Shown here piece by piece: positions 27,430 through 45,857 of a stretch of 64,000 nucleotides of DNA. Position 1 is the stretch's first letter. The number at the start of each line of letters is the position of its first letter. The stretch is taken from the NCBI RefSeq assembly GCF_001458355.1, contig NZ_CYSA01000026.1:1-64000 (forward strand). The letters are read 5' to 3'. The notes beneath the pieces were generated by a model that ran no database searches, was not told the DNA's origin, and was given only the letters and a program-made list of their open reading frames with translations. The stretch comes from Thalassovita gelatinovora. Lineage in GTDB: Bacteria > Pseudomonadota > Alphaproteobacteria > Rhodobacterales > Rhodobacteraceae. The position numbers and the translations under genes were made by a program.

Positions 27430-28287
27430 ATGATCGAATTCACCCGGCGAAAATTGCTTGGCTCCAGTACCGCCGCGCTTTTCCTCGAGGCTATTTCATC
27501 GAAAGCGGAAGACGCGTTTCGACTGGGGCTTACGCCCGTATTCCTCGACAATGATGCTGAAGTCATAGATCAGCTGCGCACGGCGCTTGCTGCGGCTTTG
27601 GGTGTCCCGATCGAATTGGAGCAACGCCGCACCTATGAAGAAGTAACCGGGTTGCTGCTTGAAGGGTCGGTGGATGCCGCTTGGCTGTGTGGGTATCCTT
27701 ATCTGCAACACCGGGACGCCTTATCGCTAGTGGCGGTGCCAGTTTGGAACGGCAAGTCTTTGTATCAGTCCTACCTGATCGCAGGCAAAGACGACACCGC
27801 AATGACGCTTGAAGATTTGCGGGGAGGGACGCACGCATTTTCCGATCCCGATTCGAACTCTGGCTATTTGGTAACGGCATCCGATCTTGCGCGGCTTGGT
27901 CTTCGCCCCGAAGGTTTCTTTCGCCGCACGATATTCACCTATGGGCACCGCAACGTGGTGCGGGCCGTGTCTGACGGGTTGGTTCGATCCGGCAGCGTGG
28001 ATGGGTATGTCTGGGAAGCCTTGGCGAAAGCAGAACCAGGCCTGACGGCAGGCACTCGGGTGATCGCGCGTTCGGAATGGTTGGGATTTCCGCCGTTCTG
28101 TGCCCGATCGGATCGGATGAAAGACAACCGGTTGCTGGCCTTGGGCGATGCCCTGCTTGGGCTGGATCAAACGGACGAAGGCCGGGTTGCATTGGGGGTG
28201 CTGCAACTTGACGGGATGACGACGGGCGGTCCCGAACTGTATGACGGCATCGAAAGCCGCATTCGGGACTACGAGAATTTGCGCTGA
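27430..28287 (+). CDS. aioX: Arsenite-binding periplasmic protein AioX
   Basis: 285-residue protein of the PhnD-like phosphate/phosphonate-binding family. In arsenite oxidisers AioX binds As(III) in the periplasm and presents it to AioS. The N-terminus has two arginines (TRRKLLGSS) and a short hydrophobic stretch ending at SKA near residue 26, compatible with export. A cysteine, C87 in DAAWLCGYPYL, sits where a conserved ligand cysteine has been described in AioX. A SDPDSNSGYL segment is typical of the fold. The stop overlaps the aioS start by one base, and aioS-aioR-aioB-aioA follow. Confidence 0.9.
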   Translation: MIEFTRRKLLGSSTAALFLEAISSKAEDAFRLGLTPVFLDNDAEVIDQLRTALAAALGVPIELEQRRTYEEVTGLLLEGSVDAAWLCGYPYLQHRDALSLVAVPVWNGKSLYQSYLIAGKDDTAMTLEDLRGGTHAFSDPDSNSGYLVTASDLARLGLRPEGFFRRTIFTYGHRNVVRAVSDGLVRSGSVDGYVWEALAKAEPGLTAGTRVIARSEWLGFPPFCARSDRMKDNRLLALGDALLGLDQTDEGRVALGVLQLDGMTTGGPELYDGIESRIRDYENLR

Positions 28288-29717
28288 TGGACGGCTTCCG
28301 ACGCATTCCGCTTTCTTTGCGCGTGCCGTTGCTGACGGCAGGTTTGATGGTCCTTTTGGGTGTTGTCGCCTCGCAACAGGTGCTGTCGACGCTGGGCAAA
28401 GTGCAGGATGCCCGCATCCGGGAACTGGCGCAGTTGCAGATCGAAGCTCTTTCTGTGGCGCTTGGTCCGCATGTGTTGCGCGACGATATTTGGGAAATAT
28501 ACGATACGCTGGAACGCGCCGCTGGCGAAACCAAAGGTCGCCGCATGATCTTTACCGTCGTGGCAGACGAGAATGGGCGTGTTATGGCCGCGACCGACCC
28601 TGTTCGCGCACCACTCGATAGCCCGATCAGCGCATTGACCGAAGGCGCACAGACAGCACAGACTCTTTCGGTGACAGGCGACGCAGTGCAGGTCCGTTTG
28701 CTTGCGCCATTGCGGTATCAAGGGCGAACAGTTGGGCAAATCATGACCGAACTGGACGTGGCAGACCTTATTTCCGAACGCTTGCGTGCCGGACAATTGC
28801 TTTTGTTGGGAAATGCTGTGGCAACCGGGGTGCTTTCGATTTTGGGGTATCTGGCAATGCGCAGGATGTTGATGCCGATTGCCAGACTGGTCCGGCGCAT
28901 GCGCGAAACTGCCGATGCCCCCGAACCTATTCCGGAAAGCGATCTGCCACGCGGAGACACCGAAATGACGCGCTTGGTGAAGACCTATAACGCCATGACG
29001 GATGCCGTGGAAGCCAAGGCCGAAACCGAACGCCGTCTGGCGGAGCGTGAACGATTCGTGAGCCTTGGTCGCCTGTCTTCGTCTCTGGCGCATGAGATCA
29101 ACAATCCGCTGGGCGGGTTGTTGAATGCAGCGGATACGATACGCCAATATTCTGACCGTCCTGACGTGGTCAGACAATCGGCTGACATCCTAACGCGCGG
29201 CTTGAACCATTTGCGCGATGTGGCTCAGGCAACGTTGGACCAAAACCGACTGGACCGCTCAAGCGCGCCTTTGACCTTCGAAGACTTCGAAGATCTGCGT
29301 TTGTTGATCGGGCCGGAAGTTTCCCGGCAAGAACAGAAACTGCGGTGGCAAATCGGCGCGTCAGGGGAAGCGTTGTCGACTTTTGCATCTGCCCCAATAC
29401 GCCAGATATTGCTCAATCTTCTCTTGAACGCTTCGGCTGCGGCCGGAGCGAAAGGTGAGGTATCCTTGTTGGTATCGGAAAAGCCCGGTGTTTTGTGTCT
29501 GATTGTTGAGGACAGTGGTGATGGGCTGTCTGATGCGGCGCGCACACGGTTGCTTTCTGACGCACCTGTGCCACCGGGTGGCGGGGTTGGTCTTCGTTTG
29601 GTTCATGATCTGGTTAAAGAACTGAATGGGTGTATCCGCTCTGAGCGAGCCGATCACATAACAATTGTTGATGTCACTGTCCCCTTGCAACAGTCTGGGA
29701 TGCCGCCGCCATGTTGA
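28287..29717 (+). CDS. aioS: Arsenite-responsive sensor histidine kinase AioS
   Basis: 476-residue membrane kinase. One helix near 12-30, a periplasmic sensor to about 168, a second helix near 170-190, a HAMP-like linker, and the H-box SLAHEINNPLGG with H269. The ATP-binding domain shows LLNLLLNASAAA (N), EDSGDGLS (G1) and GGGVGLRLVHDL (G2). In the aio system it senses AioX-bound arsenite and phosphorylates AioR. It overlaps aioX by one base and aioR by seven, so stoichiometric translation is likely. Confidence 0.9.
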   Translation: MDGFRRIPLSLRVPLLTAGLMVLLGVVASQQVLSTLGKVQDARIRELAQLQIEALSVALGPHVLRDDIWEIYDTLERAAGETKGRRMIFTVVADENGRVMAATDPVRAPLDSPISALTEGAQTAQTLSVTGDAVQVRLLAPLRYQGRTVGQIMTELDVADLISERLRAGQLLLLGNAVATGVLSILGYLAMRRMLMPIARLVRRMRETADAPEPIPESDLPRGDTEMTRLVKTYNAMTDAVEAKAETERRLAERERFVSLGRLSSSLAHEINNPLGGLLNAADTIRQYSDRPDVVRQSADILTRGLNHLRDVAQATLDQNRLDRSSAPLTFEDFEDLRLLIGPEVSRQEQKLRWQIGASGEALSTFASAPIRQILLNLLLNASAAAGAKGEVSLLVSEKPGVLCLIVEDSGDGLSDAARTRLLSDAPVPPGGGVGLRLVHDLVKELNGCIRSERADHITIVDVTVPLQQSGMPPPC

Positions 29718-30952
29718 AAGGATACCGGATTGCCTTGGTTGAGGATGACGAGATCATGGGGATGTCTTTGGTTCAGAGGCTGGAGATTGAAGGCGCTGAA
29801 GTGATATGGCTCAAACAGGTCAACCGTGCGATCGGAGCACTTAGAACGCCGCGCGCACCCATCGATGCGGTGATCAGCGACATACGTTTGCCGGACGGAA
29901 CCGGCGAGGAATTGTTTAATACTTTGTGCCGCACCGCGACGCCGCCTCCGTTTTTGTTCATCACCGGACATGGTGGGATCGAACAGGCTGTTCGCCTGAT
30001 GCAGGCCGGGGCTGCGGATTACGTAACAAAGCCATTTGAAATGGCTGTGTTTCTAGAACGACTCGCGATGCTGCTTTCACCGCACACACATAAGGATTTG
30101 CCGCCGTTGCTTGGCGTGTCCCCGGCCGCGCGACGGGTTGACGAATTGGCGCTCAGGGCGGCAGGCGACGATCATCCGGTTCTGATCCGTGGCGGTCCGG
30201 GAACAGGCAAGGGGCTGGTCGCCCGTCGGATACATGAAATGTCCGACCGGCGGTCGGCGCCATTTGTAACGGTCAATATCGCGCGCGAACCGGATGTGGG
30301 GGCCAAGTTGTTCGGACCCACCGGCGCGATCCGGCGGGTCGGTGAAGGTGTGCTGTTTCTGCATGCTCTCAGCCGTCTGCCCGAGACCGAACAGTCGGCT
30401 CTGATAGACGCGCTCGAAAACAGCTTCACGGGACGGGTCATAGCCTCTTGCGGGCATGAAATGACCGAAATCGTTGCCCAAGGCGGGGCATGTGCCGATT
30501 TGTTCTACCGACTGGATATGATGGAAATTCCAGTTCCCCCGCTTGGCGAACGGACGGAAGATGCGGTTTGGCTGATGGGGCAGCTTTTTGACGATCTGAA
30601 TACCCGGCGTGGTACCCGTTTGCTGGGCATCAGCCGGCTTAGCGAAGAGGCGGTTCGTGCGCATGACTGGCCCGGAGGTGGCCGCGAGTTGCGATCGCGG
30701 CTTGTGCGCGGGATCGAAACAGCGAAGGGTGATGTGTTGCAACCGACTGATTTGTTCCCTGAACGGATTACACAAGGGGACCGGATAAAGACACTCGCCG
30801 AAGTCCGTCAAACAGCCGAGAAACAGCAGATTATCGAAGCGTTGGAACGCATGGATGGACAGATCGGCCAGGCCGCAAAAGCTTTGAAAGTATCGCGCAC
30901 TACCCTTTGGGAAAAAATGCAGAAACTGGGTATCGACATCGATTCAGATTGA
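29711..30952 (+). CDS. aioR: Arsenite response regulator AioR with degenerate AAA+ domain
   Basis: 413-residue NtrC-type regulator. The receiver domain (1-120) looks functional: acidic pocket E11-D13, phospho-acceptor D57, K107. The central domain keeps Walker A (GGPGTGKG, 161-168). However, LFG (200-202) is followed directly by PTGAIRRVGEG, so the GAFTGA loop that contacts sigma-54 is missing; the Walker B acids are H218-A219 instead of D-E; and the FRED arginine of the finger is changed (ACADLFYRL). A Fis-type helix-turn-helix (GQAAKALKVSRTTLWEKM) ends the protein. It probably regulates aioBA without acting as a sigma-54 ATPase. Confidence 0.88.
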   Translation: MLKGYRIALVEDDEIMGMSLVQRLEIEGAEVIWLKQVNRAIGALRTPRAPIDAVISDIRLPDGTGEELFNTLCRTATPPPFLFITGHGGIEQAVRLMQAGAADYVTKPFEMAVFLERLAMLLSPHTHKDLPPLLGVSPAARRVDELALRAAGDDHPVLIRGGPGTGKGLVARRIHEMSDRRSAPFVTVNIAREPDVGAKLFGPTGAIRRVGEGVLFLHALSRLPETEQSALIDALENSFTGRVIASCGHEMTEIVAQGGACADLFYRLDMMEIPVPPLGERTEDAVWLMGQLFDDLNTRRGTRLLGISRLSEEAVRAHDWPGGGRELRSRLVRGIETAKGDVLQPTDLFPERITQGDRIKTLAEVRQTAEKQQIIEALERMDGQIGQAAKALKVSRTTLWEKMQKLGIDIDSD

Positions 30953-30976
30953 GAAAGCCGACAGCTTCGTTTCCAC

Positions 30977-31025
30977 GTTCGGATTTCCGAACATTTGAAA
31001 AAAATAGATTATTTACAACTACATA
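30977..31025 (+). promoter_or_regulatory. Candidate AioR site and promoter of aioBA
   Basis: A 7-bp perfect inverted repeat, GTTCGGATTTCCGAAC, lies at 30977-30992. A sigma-70-like -35 (TTGAAA, 30995-31000) abuts it, and a TACATA (31020-31025) follows at 19-bp spacing in an AT-rich stretch. No convincing GG-N10-GC element was found. The arrangement would suit an activator working next to a housekeeping promoter; all of this is inference from sequence. Confidence 0.5.
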
Positions 31026-31111
31026 AATTGCGCTGTCCGGGAGCCGCAAACCGGCTTTCAAATTGGGATGCGTGGTATCCTGTTCGAATAATTGAATGGG
31101 AGGAACCAGCC

Positions 31112-31630
31112 ATGAGATGCAAAAAAATGGTCAACGTGGGGCGGCGTCAGTTCTTGCGTGGCAGTGCGGTTGCCGGCGTCGGAGCCGCAGCCACAATGAT
31201 GACCGGGGTACAGGCGCACGCGGCGACGCCTGGTGCGCAAGTGGATTACCCGTCCACGAAGTTGGGCAACATCTCGGATCTGACAGTCAACGAACCGGTC
31301 GATATTGAATTTCCGGATGCCGATAGTCCCGGCGTCTTGTTGAAAATGGGAGAAGCTGTCGAAGGTGGCGCCGGCCCGGATAGCGACATCGTCGCCTTTT
31401 CGGTGCTGTGTCCGCACAAGGGCTGGTACATGTCCTACAACAGCGAAGATCGTACGCTGAACTGCCCCGGCCATTATTCGCGTTTTGACGCCGAAGCTGG
31501 CGGTCAGCAGGTTTGGGGCCATGCAACACAGAACCTGCCGCAATTCACCCTGCGCATCGACGACAAGGGCGACATCTATGCCGAGGGCGCAAGCGACCTG
31601 ATTTTCGGCCGCCCGTCGAACGTATTGTAA
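31112..31630 (+). CDS. aioB: Arsenite oxidase small (Rieske) subunit
   Basis: 172-residue Rieske subunit. A twin-arginine signal (GRRQFLRGSAV at 10-20, then a hydrophobic stretch to AHA near 37) sends the folded enzyme to the periplasm. The [2Fe-2S] ligands are C100 and H102 (CPHKGW) and C118 and H121 (CPGHYS). It passes electrons from AioA to a c-type cytochrome or azurin-like acceptor. The ATG at 31112 has gggagga 8 bases upstream; a start at 30995 is in frame but unsupported. aioA follows 15 bases later. Confidence 0.95.
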   Translation: MRCKKMVNVGRRQFLRGSAVAGVGAAATMMTGVQAHAATPGAQVDYPSTKLGNISDLTVNEPVDIEFPDADSPGVLLKMGEAVEGGAGPDSDIVAFSVLCPHKGWYMSYNSEDRTLNCPGHYSRFDAEAGGQQVWGHATQNLPQFTLRIDDKGDIYAEGASDLIFGRPSNVL

Positions 31631-31645
31631 GAGGAGGAACAAGAC

Positions 31646-34102
31646 ATGGCTTACAAGAGACAAATTGATCGCCTGCCGATCCCTCCGGCGGATGCCAAGG
31701 TACACAACGTGACCTGTCACTATTGCATCGTGGGATGTGGATACAAAGCCTACACTTGGCCGCGTAACAAGCAGGGAACGACAACCGAAAACGCCTTTGG
31801 GATCGATCTTGGCGAACAGCAGCCGGCTGACGGGACATGGATTGCTCCGTCAATGTACAACATGGTGCAACAGGATGGTCAGGATGTGCATTTGGCCGTT
31901 GTGCCCGATCATGACTGCGTGGTGAATTCCGGCTTGGCGTCGATCCGCGGTGCGCGCATGGCGGAAAACCGTCCCAGCCGCGTGACCGGTACCCAGCAAC
32001 AACGCCTGTCCGACCCGCTGGTCTGGCGTAACGGGGTCTGGCAGCCGACCACGTGGAACGACGCGCTGGATCTGGTGGCGCGGGTCACGGCCCGGATCGT
32101 GACCGAAGGGTCGGAAGACGACCTTGTGGTGTCGATGTTCGACCATGGAGGGTCCGCAGGTGGGTATGAAAACACCTGGGGGACTGGCAAGCTCTATTTC
32201 GACAGCATGAAGATCAAGAACTGTCGGATCCACAATCGACCCGCCTATAACTCCGAAGTTCATTCCAGTCGTGACATGGGTGTGGACGAACTGAATTATT
32301 CCTACAGCGACTACGAAATCACCGACACTATCGTGATGGTCGGGGCCAACCCGCTGGAAACCCAGACCAACGCCTTTCTCAACCACATGGTGCCGGGGAT
32401 GCTCAACGGGGCCCGGTTTATCATGGTCGATCCGCGTCGCTCCGTCACGGTGAACGCTTGTGAAGAAGTTGCCGGTACTGAAAACGTGCTGCATCTGGCG
32501 ATCAAGCCGGGCACCGATATGGCCCTGTTCAACACTCTCCTGACCTATATTGTGGATCAAGGTTGGACGGATGACGCGTTCATCGCCAATAGCACCTTCC
32601 AAGGCGGCGAAGCCGTTGGCGAAGGATCGGGCCAACCTGCCGGGTTGGGTAGTCTCGACTTTGCGATGCAGGACATTCGCACCGCACTTTCGGAAGGTGC
32701 GGAAATCTGTGGCGTGGCAGAGGCGGATATCGTCAAAGCCGCGGAATGGATCGCCAAACCCAAAGACGACGGGTCGCGCCGCAAATGTGTGACCGGTTAT
32801 GAAAAGGGAATCATCTGGGGCAACGACAACTATCGCACCATCGGTGCGGTCGTGAACCTGTCGCTGGCAACGGGCAACATTGGCCGCGAAGGCACCGGGT
32901 GTTGCCGGATGGGGGGGCATCAGGAGGGGTATTATCGCCCGTCTGATGCCCATGTTGGCCGTCCGGCCACTTATGTTGACCAGTTGCTGATCCGCGGCGG
33001 CGGCAAGATCCATCACGTCTGGGCCTGTGATCACTACAAAACGACGTTGAATGCGGCGCAGTTCAAGCGCGTACACAAGCGCCGTTCGGATATGGTGAAG
33101 GATGCCATGGATGCGGCGGCCGGCGGTTCACGCGAACAGTTGGTGGATGCAATCGTTTCGGCAGTCAATGCTGGCGGCCTGTTCGTTGTCGATGTGGATA
33201 TCATCCACAGCCAGATCGGCCAGAACGCGCATGTGGTCCTGCCCGCCTGCGAAGCCAATGAGATGAATCTCACCTCGATGAATGGCGAACGGCGGTTGCG
33301 TCTATCCGAACGGTATATGGATCCGTTCGGCAACTCGAAACCCGATTGCCTGATCGCGGCCGGTGTTGCCCAGCATATGGAATCCGTTCTGCGCGAAATG
33401 GGCAACGACGCATATGCCGACCAGTTCAAAGGCTATGACTGGTCATCCGAAGAAGACGCCTTCATGGATGGCTACAATCAAGGCAACCCGGAGGTGACCT
33501 ATGACCGCTTGCGCGCGATGGGCAACAACGGAGTGCAAGAACCGGTTACCGGTTTCGAAAACGGCGCACTGATCGGCACACCGCGTTTGTATACGGATGG
33601 GGTCTTTACCCGTCACGGGCGCGAGGATGGAAAGGCGTTGTTCCTCGCCGCCGGTTGGCGGGGCTGGCAAGCGCCCGGCAAGGCGCAGGAAGAAGCGAAC
33701 CACGAATTCTGGATCAACAACGTTCGTGCCAATATTTTCTGGCAGAACCAATTCTTGGATCAGGACAACGATTTCGTTCAGGATCGCTTCCCCTATCCGT
33801 TTATCGAAATGAACGGGGATGACATGGCGCGTCTGGGTATCTCGACCGGCGATCTCATTGAAATCTCGAACGGGAACGGCGCGACACAGGGGATGGCCTA
33901 TCCCACCGATACCGCCAAGCCGGGGCAGGTCGCGATGGTGTTCGGCTCTCCTGCCGGTTCACAAGGCAACGTGGTGAACCCCGGTGTCAACGAATTGGTC
34001 TTGCCAGACTACAAACACACTTGGGGCAACATCCGCAAACTCGCGGATGCACCGCCGCAAGCCAAGGCAATTTCCTTCAAGTCGAAGGAATACACAGCCT
34101 GA
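31646..34102 (+). CDS. aioA: Arsenite oxidase large molybdopterin subunit
   Basis: 818-residue catalytic subunit of the DMSO-reductase superfamily, oxidising As(III) to As(V) in the periplasm with a bis-pterin molybdenum centre. The cluster motif CHYCIVGCG has C24, C27 and C31, with a serine about 65-70 residues on in place of the fourth cysteine, as in known [3Fe-4S] AioA proteins. No cysteine or serine ligates Mo at the usual site in this family. The length is normal (about 820-830). It has no signal of its own and would be co-exported with AioB. A strong terminator follows. Confidence 0.96.
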   Translation: MAYKRQIDRLPIPPADAKVHNVTCHYCIVGCGYKAYTWPRNKQGTTTENAFGIDLGEQQPADGTWIAPSMYNMVQQDGQDVHLAVVPDHDCVVNSGLASIRGARMAENRPSRVTGTQQQRLSDPLVWRNGVWQPTTWNDALDLVARVTARIVTEGSEDDLVVSMFDHGGSAGGYENTWGTGKLYFDSMKIKNCRIHNRPAYNSEVHSSRDMGVDELNYSYSDYEITDTIVMVGANPLETQTNAFLNHMVPGMLNGARFIMVDPRRSVTVNACEEVAGTENVLHLAIKPGTDMALFNTLLTYIVDQGWTDDAFIANSTFQGGEAVGEGSGQPAGLGSLDFAMQDIRTALSEGAEICGVAEADIVKAAEWIAKPKDDGSRRKCVTGYEKGIIWGNDNYRTIGAVVNLSLATGNIGREGTGCCRMGGHQEGYYRPSDAHVGRPATYVDQLLIRGGGKIHHVWACDHYKTTLNAAQFKRVHKRRSDMVKDAMDAAAGGSREQLVDAIVSAVNAGGLFVVDVDIIHSQIGQNAHVVLPACEANEMNLTSMNGERRLRLSERYMDPFGNSKPDCLIAAGVAQHMESVLREMGNDAYADQFKGYDWSSEEDAFMDGYNQGNPEVTYDRLRAMGNNGVQEPVTGFENGALIGTPRLYTDGVFTRHGREDGKALFLAAGWRGWQAPGKAQEEANHEFWINNVRANIFWQNQFLDQDNDFVQDRFPYPFIEMNGDDMARLGISTGDLIEISNGNGATQGMAYPTDTAKPGQVAMVFGSPAGSQGNVVNPGVNELVLPDYKHTWGNIRKLADAPPQAKAISFKSKEYTA

Positions 34103-37202: not shown

Positions 37203-38042
37203 ATGGAAAAAATGATTCTTGATCGCCTGACAACTCTTGGCCATGCGCAAAGGATGGCGGTGTTCCGATTGCTTGTCCGTCGTTTTCCCGACGAGATTCC
37301 GGCGGGCGAGATCGGGGCTGCGCTCAATTTGAAGCCCAGCACATTGTCGGTCTACCTTTCGGCGCTGAACGCGGTGGGGCTTATCGTGCAGCGCCGTCAA
37401 GGCACATCACTGTTGTATCGAGCCAACATGGCCGGTGCAGAAGACTTGATTGAGTATCTTTTTCAGGACTGTTGCAACAATCGACCTCAACTTTGTTTGG
37501 CTTTCGCTGGACCCCCAAAAAACGGACATGGGAACATGAAACCTGAAAAATACAATGCGTTGTTTATCTGTACGGGCAATTCCGCCAGATCGATTTTTGC
37601 CGAAGCCATTCTGAACGAACTGGGCGGCGACAAATTTAACGTCTTTTCAGCCGGCACAAAGCCTGCATCGACATTGAACCCGATCGCCGTGGAAATGCTT
37701 GAAACAAAGGGGCATGATCTGTCCAACCTTCGGGCCAAGCACATTTCCGAATTCCAGACGGAAAATGCCCCGGTAATGGATTTTGTGTTTACGGTTTGTG
37801 ATCAGGCGGCGAACGAAGAATGCCCGGCTTGGGCTGGTCAACCGATCACCGCGCATTGGGGTGTGCCGGACCCTGTAAAGGCCACCGGGACGGATGCTGA
37901 AAAGCATCTGGCTTTTCAACAAGCCTACGGGATCCTGAAAAACCGAATTTCGCTGTTTACAGCGCTGCACCCTGAAAACTTGGAACGTGCGGCCCTGCAG
38001 GCGCGTGTGGACGAAATTTCATTGGAAGGAAAATCCCTATGA
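37203..38042 (+). CDS. arsC: Fusion of an ArsR-type regulator and an arsenate reductase
   Basis: 279-residue protein with two parts. Residues 1-90 form an ArsR-like winged helix ([20 protein letters not shown] as recognition helix) ending in a cysteine cluster [12 protein letters not shown] (88-98). Residues 115-279 are a low-molecular-weight-phosphatase-type arsenate reductase: P-loop CTGNSARS with C123, then a [12 protein letters not shown] pair and HWGVPDP. It may reduce As(V) to As(III) and sense the product. The frame is continuous, with no frameshift. It overlaps the gapdh gene by four bases. Confidence 0.9.
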
Positions 38043-39037
38043 CCGTCTATGCAATCAACGGCCTTGGCCGCATGGGGAAGCTGGCATTGCGGCCGCTGCT
38101 GGAAAAGGGCGTGCAGATTGCGTTCATCAACGACGCCATAGGCGATCCGGAAATGCATGCGCACCTGTTGGAGTTCGACACGGTGCATGGGCGCTGGCAG
38201 GCTGACTTCAAACATGACGAAACCAGCGTGACTATCAATGGCGTACGCATTCCCGTCTTGACTACGCGCAATCTAAGCGACCTGCCGCTTGAAGGGGTGG
38301 ACGTGGTGATCGAATGCACTGGTGCGTTCAAGACATCCGAGAAACTTGCTCCTTATTTTGCTGCCGGAGTAAAAAAGGTCGTTGTTTCTGCGCCAGTAAA
38401 GGAAGATGAAGCGGCCAATATCGTTGTCGGTGTAAACCACGATACCTATGATCCCGAAAAACACCGCATCGTCACGGCTGCCAGTTGCACCACAAACTGT
38501 CTGGCTCCTGTCGTCAAAGTCGTGTTGGAAGAATTCGGGATCAAACACGGTTCGATGACCACGATCCATGACGTGACCAATACCCAGACCATCGTGGATC
38601 GCCCGGCAAAGGACCTGCGCCGCGCCCGTTCGGCGCTCAACAGTCTCATCCCCACCACGACGGGTTCAGCCAAAGCGATCACCCAGATTTTTCCCCAACT
38701 CACCGGCAAACTGAATGGTCACGCCGTCCGTGTGCCGCTTTTGAACGCATCGCTTACCGATATGGTGTTTGAACTTGAACGCGCGACGACGGTCGAAGAG
38801 GTCAATGCCAAATTCAAAGCCGCCGCAGAAGGACCGCTCAAGGGAATTCTCGGCTATGAAGAACGGCCGCTTGTGTCGACCGATTACACAAATGATGACC
38901 GCAGCTCGATCATCGATGCACCGTCGACGATGGTCGTCAACGGGACGCAACTGAAGGTCTATGCCTGGTATGACAACGAATGGGGCTATGCGTACCGATT
39001 GGTGGATGTCGCGCTGATGGTGGGCAATTCGCTATGA
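38039..39037 (+). CDS. Arsenic-associated glyceraldehyde-3-phosphate dehydrogenase
   Basis: 332-residue GAPDH. NAD motif INGLGRMGK at 6-14; catalytic cysteine in ASCTTNC near residue 150; a histidine in [12 protein letters not shown]; the C-terminal [11 protein letters not shown] is universal. Next to arsJ, such a GAPDH is known to make 1-arseno-3-phosphoglycerate from arsenate and glyceraldehyde-3-phosphate for export. The coupling by four-base overlaps to the arsRC fusion and arsJ supports that role rather than glycolysis. Confidence 0.94.
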
Positions 39038-40299
39038 GCAAACCGCAGGGGTTGGCAGCCTACATGGCTGTCACCGCAGCCTATTGGGCCTTTATGCTGA
39101 CGGACGGGGCATTGCGCATGCTGGTCCTGCTGCATTTCCACACGCTTGGCTTTTCGCCTGTTCAATTGGCCTATCTATTCGTCTTGTATGAAATCGCTGG
39201 CATGGTGACCAATCTGTCGGCGGGATGGCTTGCCGCTCGGTTTGGGCTGACTTCGACGCTCTATGCCGGTCTTGGTTTGCAAGTGCTGGCCCTTTTGGCG
39301 CTGGCGCAGCTTGATCCGGCTTGGTCAATCGCGGCGTCTGTCGCCTATGTGATGTTGGTTCAAGGCCTGTCTGGGGTTGCCAAGGACCTTGCCAAGATGA
39401 GTTCCAAAAGCGCCGTGAAGTTGCTGGCACCTTCGGCGCAAGGCGGGTTGTTTCGTTGGGTTGCCATATTGACCGGCTCTAAGAACGCGGTGAAGGGGGC
39501 GGGTTTTCTGTTGGGGGCAATTCTGCTTGCTTCTGTCGGTTTCGTGCCGTCCGTTCTGGCAATGGCTGCGGTCCTTGCCGTGATCCTTGTTGCAACTGTG
39601 CTGGGGATGCCTGCGGGCCTACCTGAGGGGCGAAAGGACGCAAAGTTCCGCGAAGTCTTTTCCAAAAACCACAACGTCAATTGGCTGAGCGCCGCGAGAA
39701 TTTTTCTGTTCGGAGCACGTGACGTTTGGTTCGTCGTCGGTATCCCGATCTATTTCTACGCTGTCTTGTCCGATGGAACAGAGGCGGGAAACCGGGCGGC
39801 CTTTTTCCTGATTGGCAGCTTCATGGCCGTTTGGACCATTCTCTATGGGGCCGTTCAGGGCGCGGCTCCGCGCATTCTGCGCGCCAAGGACCGAACCCAG
39901 CCAGAAATCATTGCGCAGGCGCGCGTTTGGGTTTTGGGGCTTGCGGTCATTCCTGCGTCACTTTCGGCGCTGGTTTGGTTTGCAGTCGAACCTTCGCCTT
40001 TCCTGACGGCTGCCATTGTGGCTGCTTTGCTGATCTTCGGGGGTGTTTTCGCGGTGAATTCCTCCCTTCATTCCTATCTTATCCTGGCGTTTACCAGTTC
40101 TCACCGGGTCACGATGGATGTCGGATTTTACTATATGTCCAACGCGGCCGGGCGATTGATAGGAACGTTGCTTTCAGGTGTGACCTACCAGATTGGTGGG
40201 CTTCCCTTGTGCCTTGGGACTGCGGCGGTGATGATCGGCCTAAGCTGGATCGGCACCACAAAACTGCATGCTGACACGGTACAGGAAGTTCCATCATGA
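39034..40299 (+). CDS. arsJ: ArsJ, 1-arseno-3-phosphoglycerate exporter
   Basis: 421-residue major-facilitator-superfamily transporter with about twelve hydrophobic segments. Opening [20 protein letters not shown] and the cytoplasmic [13 protein letters not shown] segment are typical of ArsJ. ArsJ exports the unstable arseno-phosphoglycerate made by the neighbouring GAPDH, which then falls apart to arsenate outside. It overlaps gapdh and acr3 by four bases each. Confidence 0.92.
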
Positions 40300-41306
40300 G
40301 TGTATTTGAACGCTATTTGTCTGTCTGGATCGCGTTGGCGATGTTGGCCGGTGTTCTGCTGGGCAATATTGCCCCGGGTTTGGTTGGCGCCATCGCAACG
40401 GCCGAGGTTGCCAGCGTCAACCTGGTCGTTGCAGTTCTGATTTGGGCAATGGTCTATCCGATGATGGTCGGTGTGGACCCGGCTTCGCTGAAAGATGTCG
40501 CACGTCAGCCTCGCGGATTACTGATCACCTTGGTCGTGAACTGGATGATCAAGCCGTTTACCATGGCCGCCCTTGCTGTCTTGTTCTTTGAACACATTTT
40601 TGCGCCATGGATTCAGCCCGAGGATGCGTCGCAATACATCGCGGGCTTGATTTTGCTGGGTGCGGCCCCTTGTACGGCGATGGTGTTTGTCTGGTCTCAA
40701 CTCACGCGAGGGGACGAAACCTATACATTGCTCCAGGTATCTGTAAATGACCTGATCATGGTCATTGCTTTCGCGCCGATCGTCGCTTTTCTGTTGGGCG
40801 TTACCGACATCACGGTGCCTTGGGAAACGTTGGTGCTTTCAGTCGTGCTTTTCATTGCGCTGCCGCTGGGCGCGGGGGTGTTGACGCGTCGGCATCTCGG
40901 GTCTGAGACGGAGATCGAGGCTTTTCAGGCAAAAGCAAAACCATTTTCGGTGATTGGCCTGATCGTGACAGTGATGATCCTGTTTGGACTTCAGGGACAG
41001 GTCATCATTTCCCGCCCTTCGGTGATCGCGCTTATTGCTGTCCCAATCGTCCTGCAAAGCTACGGCATTTTTGCAATTGCATATGCCGCCGCTTTCGCTC
41101 TCAAAGTCCCCCACAGGATCGCAGCACCTTGCGCTTTGATCGGAACGTCGAACTTCTTTGAACTGGCAGTGGCTGTCGCGATCAGCCTGTTTGGCCTGAA
41201 TTCCGGCGCAGCCCTTGCAACGGTTGTCGGCGTTTTGGTTGAAGTACCCGTCATGCTGACGCTGGTGGCATTTGCCAACCGAACACGGCGGCGATTTGTC
41301 GAATGA
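40296..41306 (+). CDS. acr3: Acr3-type arsenite efflux permease
   Basis: 336-residue arsenite exporter of the ACR3/BART superfamily with about ten hydrophobic helices. The conserved cysteine segment [16 protein letters not shown] lies near residue 127, and [13 protein letters not shown] and [11 protein letters not shown] are further landmarks. It pumps out As(III) made by the ArsC part of the fusion protein. It is often labelled arsB in annotations. It ends the plus-strand ars operon. Confidence 0.94.
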
Positions 41307-44561: not shown

Positions 44562-45857
44562 TCAGTCGAGGACCGCGTCGACCCGCGCTCCTTGCGCAAT
44601 CATCCGGTCGGCCGTGTTCAGCTTCTCGATCGCAAACCCGGCGGCGGATTTGTACTTGGCCATGAACTCAGCGCGTTCCTCAGCTGGGATCACCTCGTCG
44701 ATTTCATCGAATTCGCCGCCGCAACGGTCGTTCACCATGTTCAGCAATCCGAACGGTCCGGCGCCGCGGTTGCGCAGGATCAGTTCCGATACCGGGCCGC
44801 ACAGCTTGTCGTCATAGGCCTGCAACGCCGCCGCCGTCACCCCGTGTTCCAGCATCGCCGCGCCCAGCTCGCGCGCGTCGATCACCGCCTGGCTGGCGCC
44901 GTTCGATCCCGTAGGGTACATCGCATGGGCCGCGTCGCCCATCAGCGCCACCGCGCCGTCGCGCCAGGTCGGCACCGGGTCGCGGTCGATCATCGGGTTC
45001 TCGTATGCCACCTCGGCCCCGCGCAGCAGTTCCGGCACGTTCAGCCAGTCATATTCCCAGCCGTCGAAATGATGCGCGAAATCCGATAGGTCCACCTGCC
45101 GGAACCATCCAGTGGTTTCATGCGCCGACGGATCGTCATAGGTGACCTCGGCGATCCAGTTGACCTGCGCCAGCCCGGTATCGGGATCGGGGTGCGAGAT
45201 GGGATAGATCACCATCCGGTGCTTATGCGTGCCCAAGCCGACGAAGGAAGACCCGGTGCGGATCGGTTTCGCCATCGTGGTGCCGCGCCACATCACCGCG
45301 CCGCCCCAGTGAATCGGGGGCTGGTCGGGATGCATCTGGGCGCGCACCGCCGAATGAATGCCGTCGGCACCGATCAGGATCGTGCCGGTCTCGCGCGTCA
45401 CGGACCCGTCGGCCTGCTCTATGATCGCGGTGACGCTGCCGTCGACGTTGTTTTCATAGCCGGTGACGCGCTGGCCCAGCCGCACCGCGTCTTTGCCCGC
45501 GCGTTCGACGAATTTTGTGTAAAGCAGCATGTGGAACTTGCCGCGATGCACCGCGTATTGCGGCCAGTTGTAACCGGCCAGTTCGCCGCGCGGTTCGGAA
45601 TAGATGTCGTTGCCGTTTAGCCCGACCAGCGCCCATTCCCGCGCCGGAACGCCGACTTGATCCAGATCCCCGGCCCCGATGTCGAGGTCGTAAAGCTCGC
45701 GCACGGCGTTGGGCTGAATGTTGATGCCGACACCCAAGGGGCGCAATTCCTGCACCGCTTCGAACACCAAGCAGGGCACACCGATCTGGTGAAGCGTCAG
45801 CGCCAGCGACAGCCCGCCAATACCGCCACCGGCAATCATTACAAGGGGATGCGACAT
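44562..45857 (-). CDS. FAD-dependent aromatic monooxygenase
   Basis: 431-residue flavoprotein of the PHBH class. The FAD motif GGGIGGLSLAL is near residue 10, the DG motif GADGIHSAVR near 168, and the GD motif ALMGDAAHAMYPTGSNG near 305. It resembles salicylate- and PhzS-like hydroxylases. The neighbouring hpa operon lacks hpaBC, so this enzyme might provide ring hydroxylation of the growth substrate; that is inference. It lies 73 bases after the FAD-linked oxidase gene on the same strand. Confidence 0.86.
   Translation of the reverse strand: MSHPLVMIAGGGIGGLSLALTLHQIGVPCLVFEAVQELRPLGVGINIQPNAVRELYDLDIGAGDLDQVGVPAREWALVGLNGNDIYSEPRGELAGYNWPQYAVHRGKFHMLLYTKFVERAGKDAVRLGQRVTGYENNVDGSVTAIIEQADGSVTRETGTILIGADGIHSAVRAQMHPDQPPIHWGGAVMWRGTTMAKPIRTGSSFVGLGTHKHRMVIYPISHPDPDTGLAQVNWIAEVTYDDPSAHETTGWFRQVDLSDFAHHFDGWEYDWLNVPELLRGAEVAYENPMIDRDPVPTWRDGAVALMGDAAHAMYPTGSNGASQAVIDARELGAAMLEHGVTAAALQAYDDKLCGPVSELILRNRGAGPFGLLNMVNDRCGGEFDEIDEVIPAEERAEFMAKYKSAAGFAIEKLNTADRMIAQGARVDAVLD

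Follow-up and report, generated by a model that had tools for sequence, protein, structure and literature searches.

A clade of AioR regulators, including that of Thalassovita gelatinovora, lacks the sigma-54 contact loop and appears to have changed promoter type along with it

The aio locus of Thalassovita gelatinovora lies in the first 64,000 nucleotides of contig NZ_CYSA01000026.1 (assembly GCF_001458355.1, forward strand; this whole stretch is hereafter called the window). Its genes stand in the order aioX-S-R-B-A, and aioA and aioB, the genes of arsenite oxidase, are the presumed target of the response regulator AioR. The aioR gene (29711..30952, + strand), located between aioS and aioB, codes for a short AioR in which the sigma-54-contacting GAFTGA loop and the Walker B acids are missing, and no -24/-12 box is found upstream of aioB in the window. 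This change is shared by a whole clade and is paired with a change of the promoter, and it is not a local defect, a product of chance or a sequencing error. We consider it highly probable that the short AioR is a phospho-regulated activator of the housekeeping sigma-70 polymerase, like the NtrC of Rhodobacter, the sigma factor being read from the promoter motif and from precedent.

Results

AioR of the window

The aioR frame is a single open frame of 413 amino acids. A first-pass annotation, made from the DNA sequence alone, had described an intact receiver domain (D57, K107), a Walker A motif (GGPGTGKG, 161-168) and an LFG at 200-202 that runs straight into PTGAIRRVGEG, and the translation places all of them at these positions. 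It had also claimed that GAFTGA and the Walker B acids were lost, and both claims hold: there is no GAFTGA, and the Walker B segment reads VLFLHA (214-219), with H218-A219 where the GAFTGA-type AioRs carry D-E (23/23). A cysteine (C261) occupies the position of the FRED arginine. The protein is also without the L2/pre-sensor-I loop, the second loop facing sigma-54, a further deletion that the annotation had overlooked.

Pfam scores for the receiver, Sigma54_activat and Fis-type helix-turn-helix (HTH) domains are above cut-off. The AlphaFold model of the window AioR (mean pLDDT 89.8, pTM 0.58) is matched by NtrX, NtrC1, PspF and VpsR in Foldseek, and the two L2 strands seen at 254-265 in the model of a long-form AioR (mean pLDDT 80.7) have no counterpart there in the short model. 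By fold, from both the profile and the Foldseek matches, the window AioR is a sigma-54 AAA+ enhancer-binding protein; of the functional parts of this class it retains the Walker A P-loop and lacks GAFTGA, the Walker B acids and L2. A frameshifted or misread gene was ruled out by the single open frame and by the existence of 60 similar AioRs.

Distribution and phylogeny of the short AioRs

The aio loci were collected through AioA, whatever regulator accompanied it, both from named genomes, where the best 80 of 359 relatives were used, and from additional genomes. Among the best 80, six loci without an AioR match and six with a too short AioR were left out. In the first set of additional genomes all nine non-own matches were taken, with L106 (no AioR) and L108 (AioR of 303 aa) kept outside the final set; in the second, 28 of the 33 non-own genomes with a match were taken first and two (G583 and G657) later, G597, G634 and G761 being left out; three new matches from a further search were added last. 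Two loci with short frames (L125, L144), one without AioR (L168) and duplicates of named loci were also removed. The final set comprised 89 deduplicated loci with a full AioR and aioB: 61 short, 23 GAFTGA-type and five long without GAFTGA (L060, L104, L078, L075 and L087). The variants GALSGA (L049), GAFSGA (L070) and GAFTSA (L112) were counted as GAFTGA-type, and L163 as short after trimming of its frame. Loci fetched afterwards, namely L177, L178 and L179 (GAFTGA-type), L180 and L181 (short-type, the latter with an open frame limited to 180 aa) and also L035, are reported apart from the 89.

In a careful AioR tree of the 89 rows, built without the alignment columns of L1, L2 and Walker B, the 61 short AioRs form a single clade with a support of 100/100, and the deepest among them are L154 and L145. 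The first-pass annotation could not tell whether the change was unique or widespread in Rhodobacteraceae; it is shared by 61 of the 89 loci, although the family is not uniform, since L155, from a genome of this same family, has a GAFTGA-type AioR. By name, the members of the clade are mostly Rhodobacteraceae or Rhodobacterales, and some are identified only as Alphaproteobacteria. The short AioRs of Stappia and Roseibium aquae are nested within a clade of Rhodobacteraceae, which looks like transfer. Mapped on the tree, as the annotation had proposed, GAFTGA changes three times: in the short clade, in L060+L104+L078, and in L075+L087, which stand beside the GAFTGA-bearing L085. The position of L078 is less sure because of its long branch and odd composition. 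The three changes are best read as losses rather than gains, given that GAFTGA is the norm of the family and given a second, quick tree that was rooted with paralogues; this kind of loss seems to have occurred in AioR at least three times. In this quick tree, all 69 AioRs included were separated from six paralogues with a support of 100. On this basis the idea that the short AioR descends from one of the GAFTGA-less paralogues in its own genome was rejected, although the long paralogue branches of the tree call for caution.

Residues lost and residues retained

GAFTGA is missing in all 61 short AioRs. An equivalent elsewhere in the protein, named beforehand as grounds for giving up this reading, was found in none of the alignments, and the reading stands. 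The Walker B glutamate (219) is present in none of the 61, and in 59 both Walker B positions are devoid of an acid; the exceptions are L090 and L167, with a D and an E, respectively, at 218. Of the 13 residues of the L2/pre-sensor-I loop, 0-2 remain in each of the 61. The missing FRED arginine, which the annotation had added to the list of losses, is true of the window and not of the clade: 43 of the 61 short AioRs retain it, and its loss was rejected as a clade trait.

Receiver residues D12, D13, D57, T85 and K107 are invariant in the 61 short AioRs, as are G164, G166 and K167 of the P-loop (G-x-G-K); R281 is kept in all 61, and R325, the arginine of sensor II, in 60 of them. Short and GAFTGA-type AioRs have the HTH stretch SRTTLWEKM largely in common, with exceptions such as L105, L109 and L110. 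The short AioRs thus appear still to receive the signal and to bind nucleotide and DNA, and to have given up hydrolysis and the contact with sigma-54. Because the P-loop is invariant, these data suggest that nucleotide binding still matters, and the plain DNA-binding activator envisaged in the first-pass annotation may be too simple a description. In L075 and L087, GAFTGA and the promoter box are gone and the Walker B D-E and the length of L2 are retained, which suggests that the GAFTGA loop and the promoter box are given up before Walker B and L2.

The -24/-12 box upstream of aioB

A sigma-54 box was scored when at least 8 of the 10 consensus bases of the -24/-12 element were present, with GG and GC in register, between 80 and 35 bp before the aioB ATG. 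Such a box was found in 23/23 GAFTGA-type loci, in 0/61 short loci and in 0/5 long GAFTGA-less loci. On the tree it changes three times in step with GAFTGA, and the three independent pairs all agree. L108, outside the 89 loci, has both GAFTGA and a 10/10 box; L106 and L168, both without AioR, have neither operator nor box. Among the loci fetched later, the GAFTGA-type L177 and L179 score 9/10 and 8/10, and no -24/-12 box was found in the short-type L180 and L181 or in L035. The window contains many matches to TGGCACN5TTGCW (54, with 40 expected), so single ones were used only together with position and comparison; several short loci have 8/10 sigma-54-like matches within aioR itself, at -214 to -261. 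Sigma-54 itself has not been lost, since the genome of the window retains rpoN and two GAFTGA activators (L001 and L002), and a genome-wide loss was therefore rejected as the cause.

The AioR operator

The predicted AioR operator of the window, CGTTCGGATTTCCGAACA (30976..30993, + strand), is present as a single copy and matches 17 of the 18 positions of the palindrome TGTTCGGAWWTCCGAACA, which is found upstream of aioB in all 61 short loci, with one copy in 60 and two in L154. Its 16-bp core, GTTCGGATTTCCGAAC, is identical in sequence to the footprint published for the AioR of Agrobacterium tumefaciens GW4 at mcp (PMC5335332), and AioR is predicted to bind here. With its one mismatch, it is the only site of the genome with two mismatches or fewer; at three mismatches there are 10 more sites, against three for a reversed control pattern. 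One operator-like site with three mismatches is at 44738-44755 of the window, inside a frame that, judged by eye, is flavin-monooxygenase-like.

Two operators separated by 29-33 bp are found in 19 of the 23 GAFTGA-type loci, and two are also present in all five long GAFTGA-less loci; among the GAFTGA-type loci fetched later, L177 and L178 have none and L179 has one. Of the two deepest short-type loci, L145 has one operator and L154 has two, 32 bp apart. Since L154 is of the short type and yet has two operators, the change of the AioR protein may have preceded the loss of the second operator.

A -10-like hexamer at a fixed distance from the operator

An extended -10-like element, TGG-TATCCT, is located at 31073..31081 (+ strand) in the window, with TG at 31073-31074 and the hexamer at 31076-31081, its first base lying exactly 100 bp beyond that of the operator. 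In all 61 short loci a TAnnnT hexamer starts 98-101 bp after the operator start (TAnnCT in 46), where shuffled sequence would yield 4.8 of 61 in a slightly wider 96-103 window, chosen after the position of the hexamer had been seen. Control windows of 8 bp in the short loci contain TAnnnT in 0-10 of 61 from +20 to +91 and in none at +108 to +115, and the phased hexamer is found in none of the 21 GAFTGA-type loci that have an operator. The distance between operator and hexamer has a standard deviation of 0.9 bp in the short loci, versus 5.1 bp for the distance between hexamer and ATG, and in the later loci L035, L180 and L181 the hexamer starts at +98 or +99.

Since the 61 loci are one clade, their agreement is partly a reflection of descent. 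However, among 43 diverged representatives, with identities below 55% across 100 bp, the hexamer is at +98 to +101 in 43/43, versus 1.8 expected, and the flanks agree at only 30-32%; flanks as divergent as these argue for selection on the spacing. The mean identity of the hexamer in these representatives, 69%, is mostly built in because the rows were anchored on T, A and T, and the evidence therefore lies in the position. The hexamer is preceded, two bases upstream, by a G in 41 of the 61 short loci; a TGnTAnnnT element is one that we take to fit the sigma-70 consensus. A motif search (width 12) between operator and ATG returned a GC-rich element at operator +46/48 and not the -10; a separate search nearer the ATG returned TA.cCT. 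With a transcription start some 7 nt beyond the hexamer, the centre of the operator would be about 103 bp upstream of the start. Activation by class I regulators such as CRP is possible from roughly this far upstream when the site is in phase.

As a separate observation, a dyad GCYGC-N3-GCRG is present exactly at operator +48 in 28 of the 61 short loci (for example L043, L082 and L089), not including the window, and in none of the 28 other loci of the set. It resembles the PhaR site reported for Rhodobacter sphaeroides, CTGCNNNGCAG (PMC12542648), with an exact match in only 3 of the 28, and a second regulator at this dyad is possible.

Disagreement between the AioA and AioR trees

In regards to the oxidase, a quick AioA tree of the rows with a full AioR requires two changes of the short label and 5-6 of the GAFTGA label, compared with one and 3-4 on the AioR trees. 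Twelve short-type loci (L077, L079, L080, L082-L084, L086, L088-L090, L092 and L093) have an AioA that groups with those of GAFTGA-type Hyphomicrobiales (support 100). The Hoeflea/Notoacmeibacter AioAs (L020, L022, L023 and L026), 83-84% identical to that of the window, group with most of the short-type AioAs, with forks that are unsupported. Because the two trees disagree, aioA has probably been exchanged between regulatory types at least once; regulator and promoter remained matched.

The aio genes and other observations in the genome

The other genes of the locus are on the same strand as aioR. The aioX gene (27430..28287) encodes a predicted periplasmic arsenite-binding protein, the signal input (Pfam Phosphonate-bd, E 7e-48), and aioS (28287..29717) a sensor histidine kinase with Pfam HisKA and HATPase_c domains, overlapping aioR by 7 bp. 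The Rieske subunit gene aioB (31112..31630) is identified by Pfam Rieske and a TAT signal (on 30995-31630); its start was set to the ATG at 31112 rather than to the TTG at 30995 of the open reading frame list, the upstream regions of the other loci aligning on this ATG. It is preceded by a ribosome-binding site, GGGAGGA (31098..31104, + strand), similar to the GGGAGG of the upstream regions of other loci. The molybdopterin subunit of arsenite oxidase is encoded by aioA (31646..34102; Pfam Rieske_3, Molybdopterin and Molydop_binding).

In Jhaorihella thermophila (L035, 8065-9300) the aioR match is in three overlapping pieces while operator and -10 remain, and the locus looks broken or misassembled. 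The AioA of G492 contains two in-frame stops. The genome of the window has 12 PF00158 matches, of which seven are clear activators: L001 and L002 have GAFTGA, and five, L006, L003, L004, L007 and AioR, do not. The weak matches L009, L011 and L012 were left outside this count, and none of them was hit in one BLAST search. With NCBIfam, L006 has NtrC as its best match, below cut-off, and L003 is NtrX, above cut-off. In L004 (G000:C28) and L007 (G000:C25), both response regulators, GAFTGA is gone and Walker B is altered (LEDV and IDDI). Beside aio, a second arsenic block was recognised by eye from translations at 37203-41306 of the window. One frame (37203-38042) combines an ArsR-type HTH with an arsenate-reductase-like domain in a fusion; the others are a glyceraldehyde-phosphate-dehydrogenase-like gene (38039-39037), an ArsJ-like MFS transporter (38980-40299) and an Acr3-like exporter (40296-41306).

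Discussion

Proposed mechanism and alternatives

The proposal of the first-pass annotation that this AioR works without sigma-54, perhaps with the housekeeping polymerase, gains support from the contrast between 0/61 and 23/23 boxes and from the phased hexamer. In the mechanism that we propose, AioX would bind arsenite, AioS would phosphorylate AioR at D57, and phosphorylated AioR would bind the single palindromic operator and activate aioBA through contact with sigma-70 RNA polymerase at the extended -10, with no ATP-driven remodelling of a sigma-54 polymerase. Contact with the polymerase would be direct, possibly through the carboxy-terminal domain of its alpha subunit given the position of the operator centre relative to the expected start, control would be positive, and binding of ATP without hydrolysis would have a role. 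In regards to its origin, the ancestral AioR presumably activated sigma-54 polymerase in the usual way, from two operators and at a -24/-12 promoter. On the way to the short clade, L1 (GAFTGA), L2, Walker B and the -24/-12 box would have been lost, a -10 hexamer would have come to lie in phase with the operator, and the number of operators would have fallen from two to one, this direction of change being the one that we infer.

Several observations weigh against this reading. Four of the 23 GAFTGA-type loci have fewer than two operators (one in two loci, none in two), the later GAFTGA-type locus L178 has a box of only 7/10, and some short loci have sigma-54-like matches out of place: 9/10 at -38 in L055, 8/10 at -42 in L038 and L041, and 8/10 at -16 in L167, over the ribosome-binding site. 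The five long GAFTGA-less loci are without the hexamer at +98 to +101, L075 and L087 sharing a TAGC(T/A)T at +94. The short loci have no conserved or recognisable -35, so the sigma factor is read from the extended -10 alone. Finally, a sign test on the pairing of protein and promoter gives p 0.25, and with only three independent pairs it cannot fall below this value.

An activator deprived of its polymerase-remodelling loop could keep DNA binding only, and the short AioR could then be a repressor or anti-activator that holds aioBA off without arsenite and is released by phosphorylation; the NtrC of Caulobacter, also without GAFTGA, represses some promoters (PMC10274813). However, the -10 follows the operator centre after about 91 bp, a distance that is fixed in 61/61 loci and keeps the operator off the promoter, the lack of a recognisable -35 suggests that an activator is needed, and the GAFTGA-type orthologue of Herminiimonas arsenicoxydans is an activator (PMC2848651), so that we regard repression as improbable. 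We give as little credence to a short AioR working through another activator or sigma factor, either sigma-54 together with a partner GAFTGA protein, or else an ECF or RpoH sigma. The presence of rpoN and of two GAFTGA activators in the genome, as well as the absence of a canonical -35, would allow it, but no short locus has a -24/-12 box at the ancestral place, and TGnTAnnnT fits the sigma-70 consensus, RpoH and ECF sites having had no systematic search.

The least likely explanation, and a very improbable one, is that AioR is a decaying relic and that aioBA is expressed constitutively or by read-through from aioXSR. Several AAA+ motifs are indeed gone, aioR and aioB are co-directional, and the aioR of Jhaorihella matches only as three separate pieces. 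Yet the pN/pS of the window aioR against L018 is about 0.23 (pN 0.18, pS 0.79, with synonymous sites saturated), and the receiver and P-loop residues, as well as the operator with its phased hexamer, are kept in all 61 short loci. Activation of the sigma-70 polymerase by the short AioR thus remains our preferred reading.

Relation to known systems

The closest precedent is the NtrC of Rhodobacter capsulatus, which is reported to activate the sigma-70 polymerase and to need phosphorylation and ATP binding, not hydrolysis (PMC10274813). Like the short AioR, this NtrC, and that of Rhodobacterales in general, is an NtrC-type response regulator without GAFTGA, although it is another gene answering another signal. 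The NtrC-like L006 of the genome of the window keeps its Walker B acids (FDEI), unlike the short AioR, and the window AioR has one operator. In Caulobacter, NtrC is also a GAFTGA-less alphaproteobacterial regulator of sigma-70 promoters (PMC10274813), but its L1 deletion is smaller than that of the R. capsulatus NtrC and both Walker A and Walker B are needed, whereas the short AioR is without Walker B and L2. HupR, TyrR and DhaR, with GAFTGA lost or changed (PMC3162934), and VpsR (PMC10274813 and PMC3162934) are reported or proposed to act without sigma-54. These have other signals and operons, whereas aio offers GAFTGA and non-GAFTGA orthologues on the same operon.

The GAFTGA-type AioR/AoxR of Herminiimonas, Agrobacterium and Rhizobium NT-26 is an orthologue of the short AioR, with the same aioXSR-BA genes, receiver, HTH type and operator. 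It differs in keeping GAFTGA and, in the sampled loci, also Walker B, L2, a -24/-12 promoter and mostly two operators. RpoN is required for the system of H. arsenicoxydans, whose AioR is described as sigma-54 dependent (PMC2848651), a review assigns AioSR to the sigma-54 family (PMC7533571), and a survey of 12 aioXSR operons describes two palindromes together with a -24/-12 box in every one of them (PMC3834237). In the open-licence literature, from which most subscription papers are absent, we found no report of a sigma-54-free AioR, nor of a repeated coupled switch within one orthologous operon. The mechanism thus has precedents, and the repeated coupled switch in one orthologous operon is apparently the new element.

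It seems to us fairly likely, with less assurance than for the mechanism itself, that one orthologous regulon switched from sigma-54 to the housekeeping polymerase at least three times, on each occasion losing the loop and the -24/-12 box together and keeping the operator. The largest clade would combine a phase-locked geometry of 98-101 bp with an AAA+ domain devoid of hydrolysis, maybe an ATP-binding switch, and aioA would have passed between types at least once with the match unbroken. Given that a clade as large as 61 of the 89 loci does not fit the sigma-54 description, predictions on arsenite oxidation in Rhodobacteraceae drawn from Agrobacterium or Herminiimonas may be wrong. With the same operator and target in both forms and three conversions, the aio loci provide a natural experiment on how a sigma-54 enhancer system becomes an ordinary activator, and they could show which motif is given up first in such a conversion.

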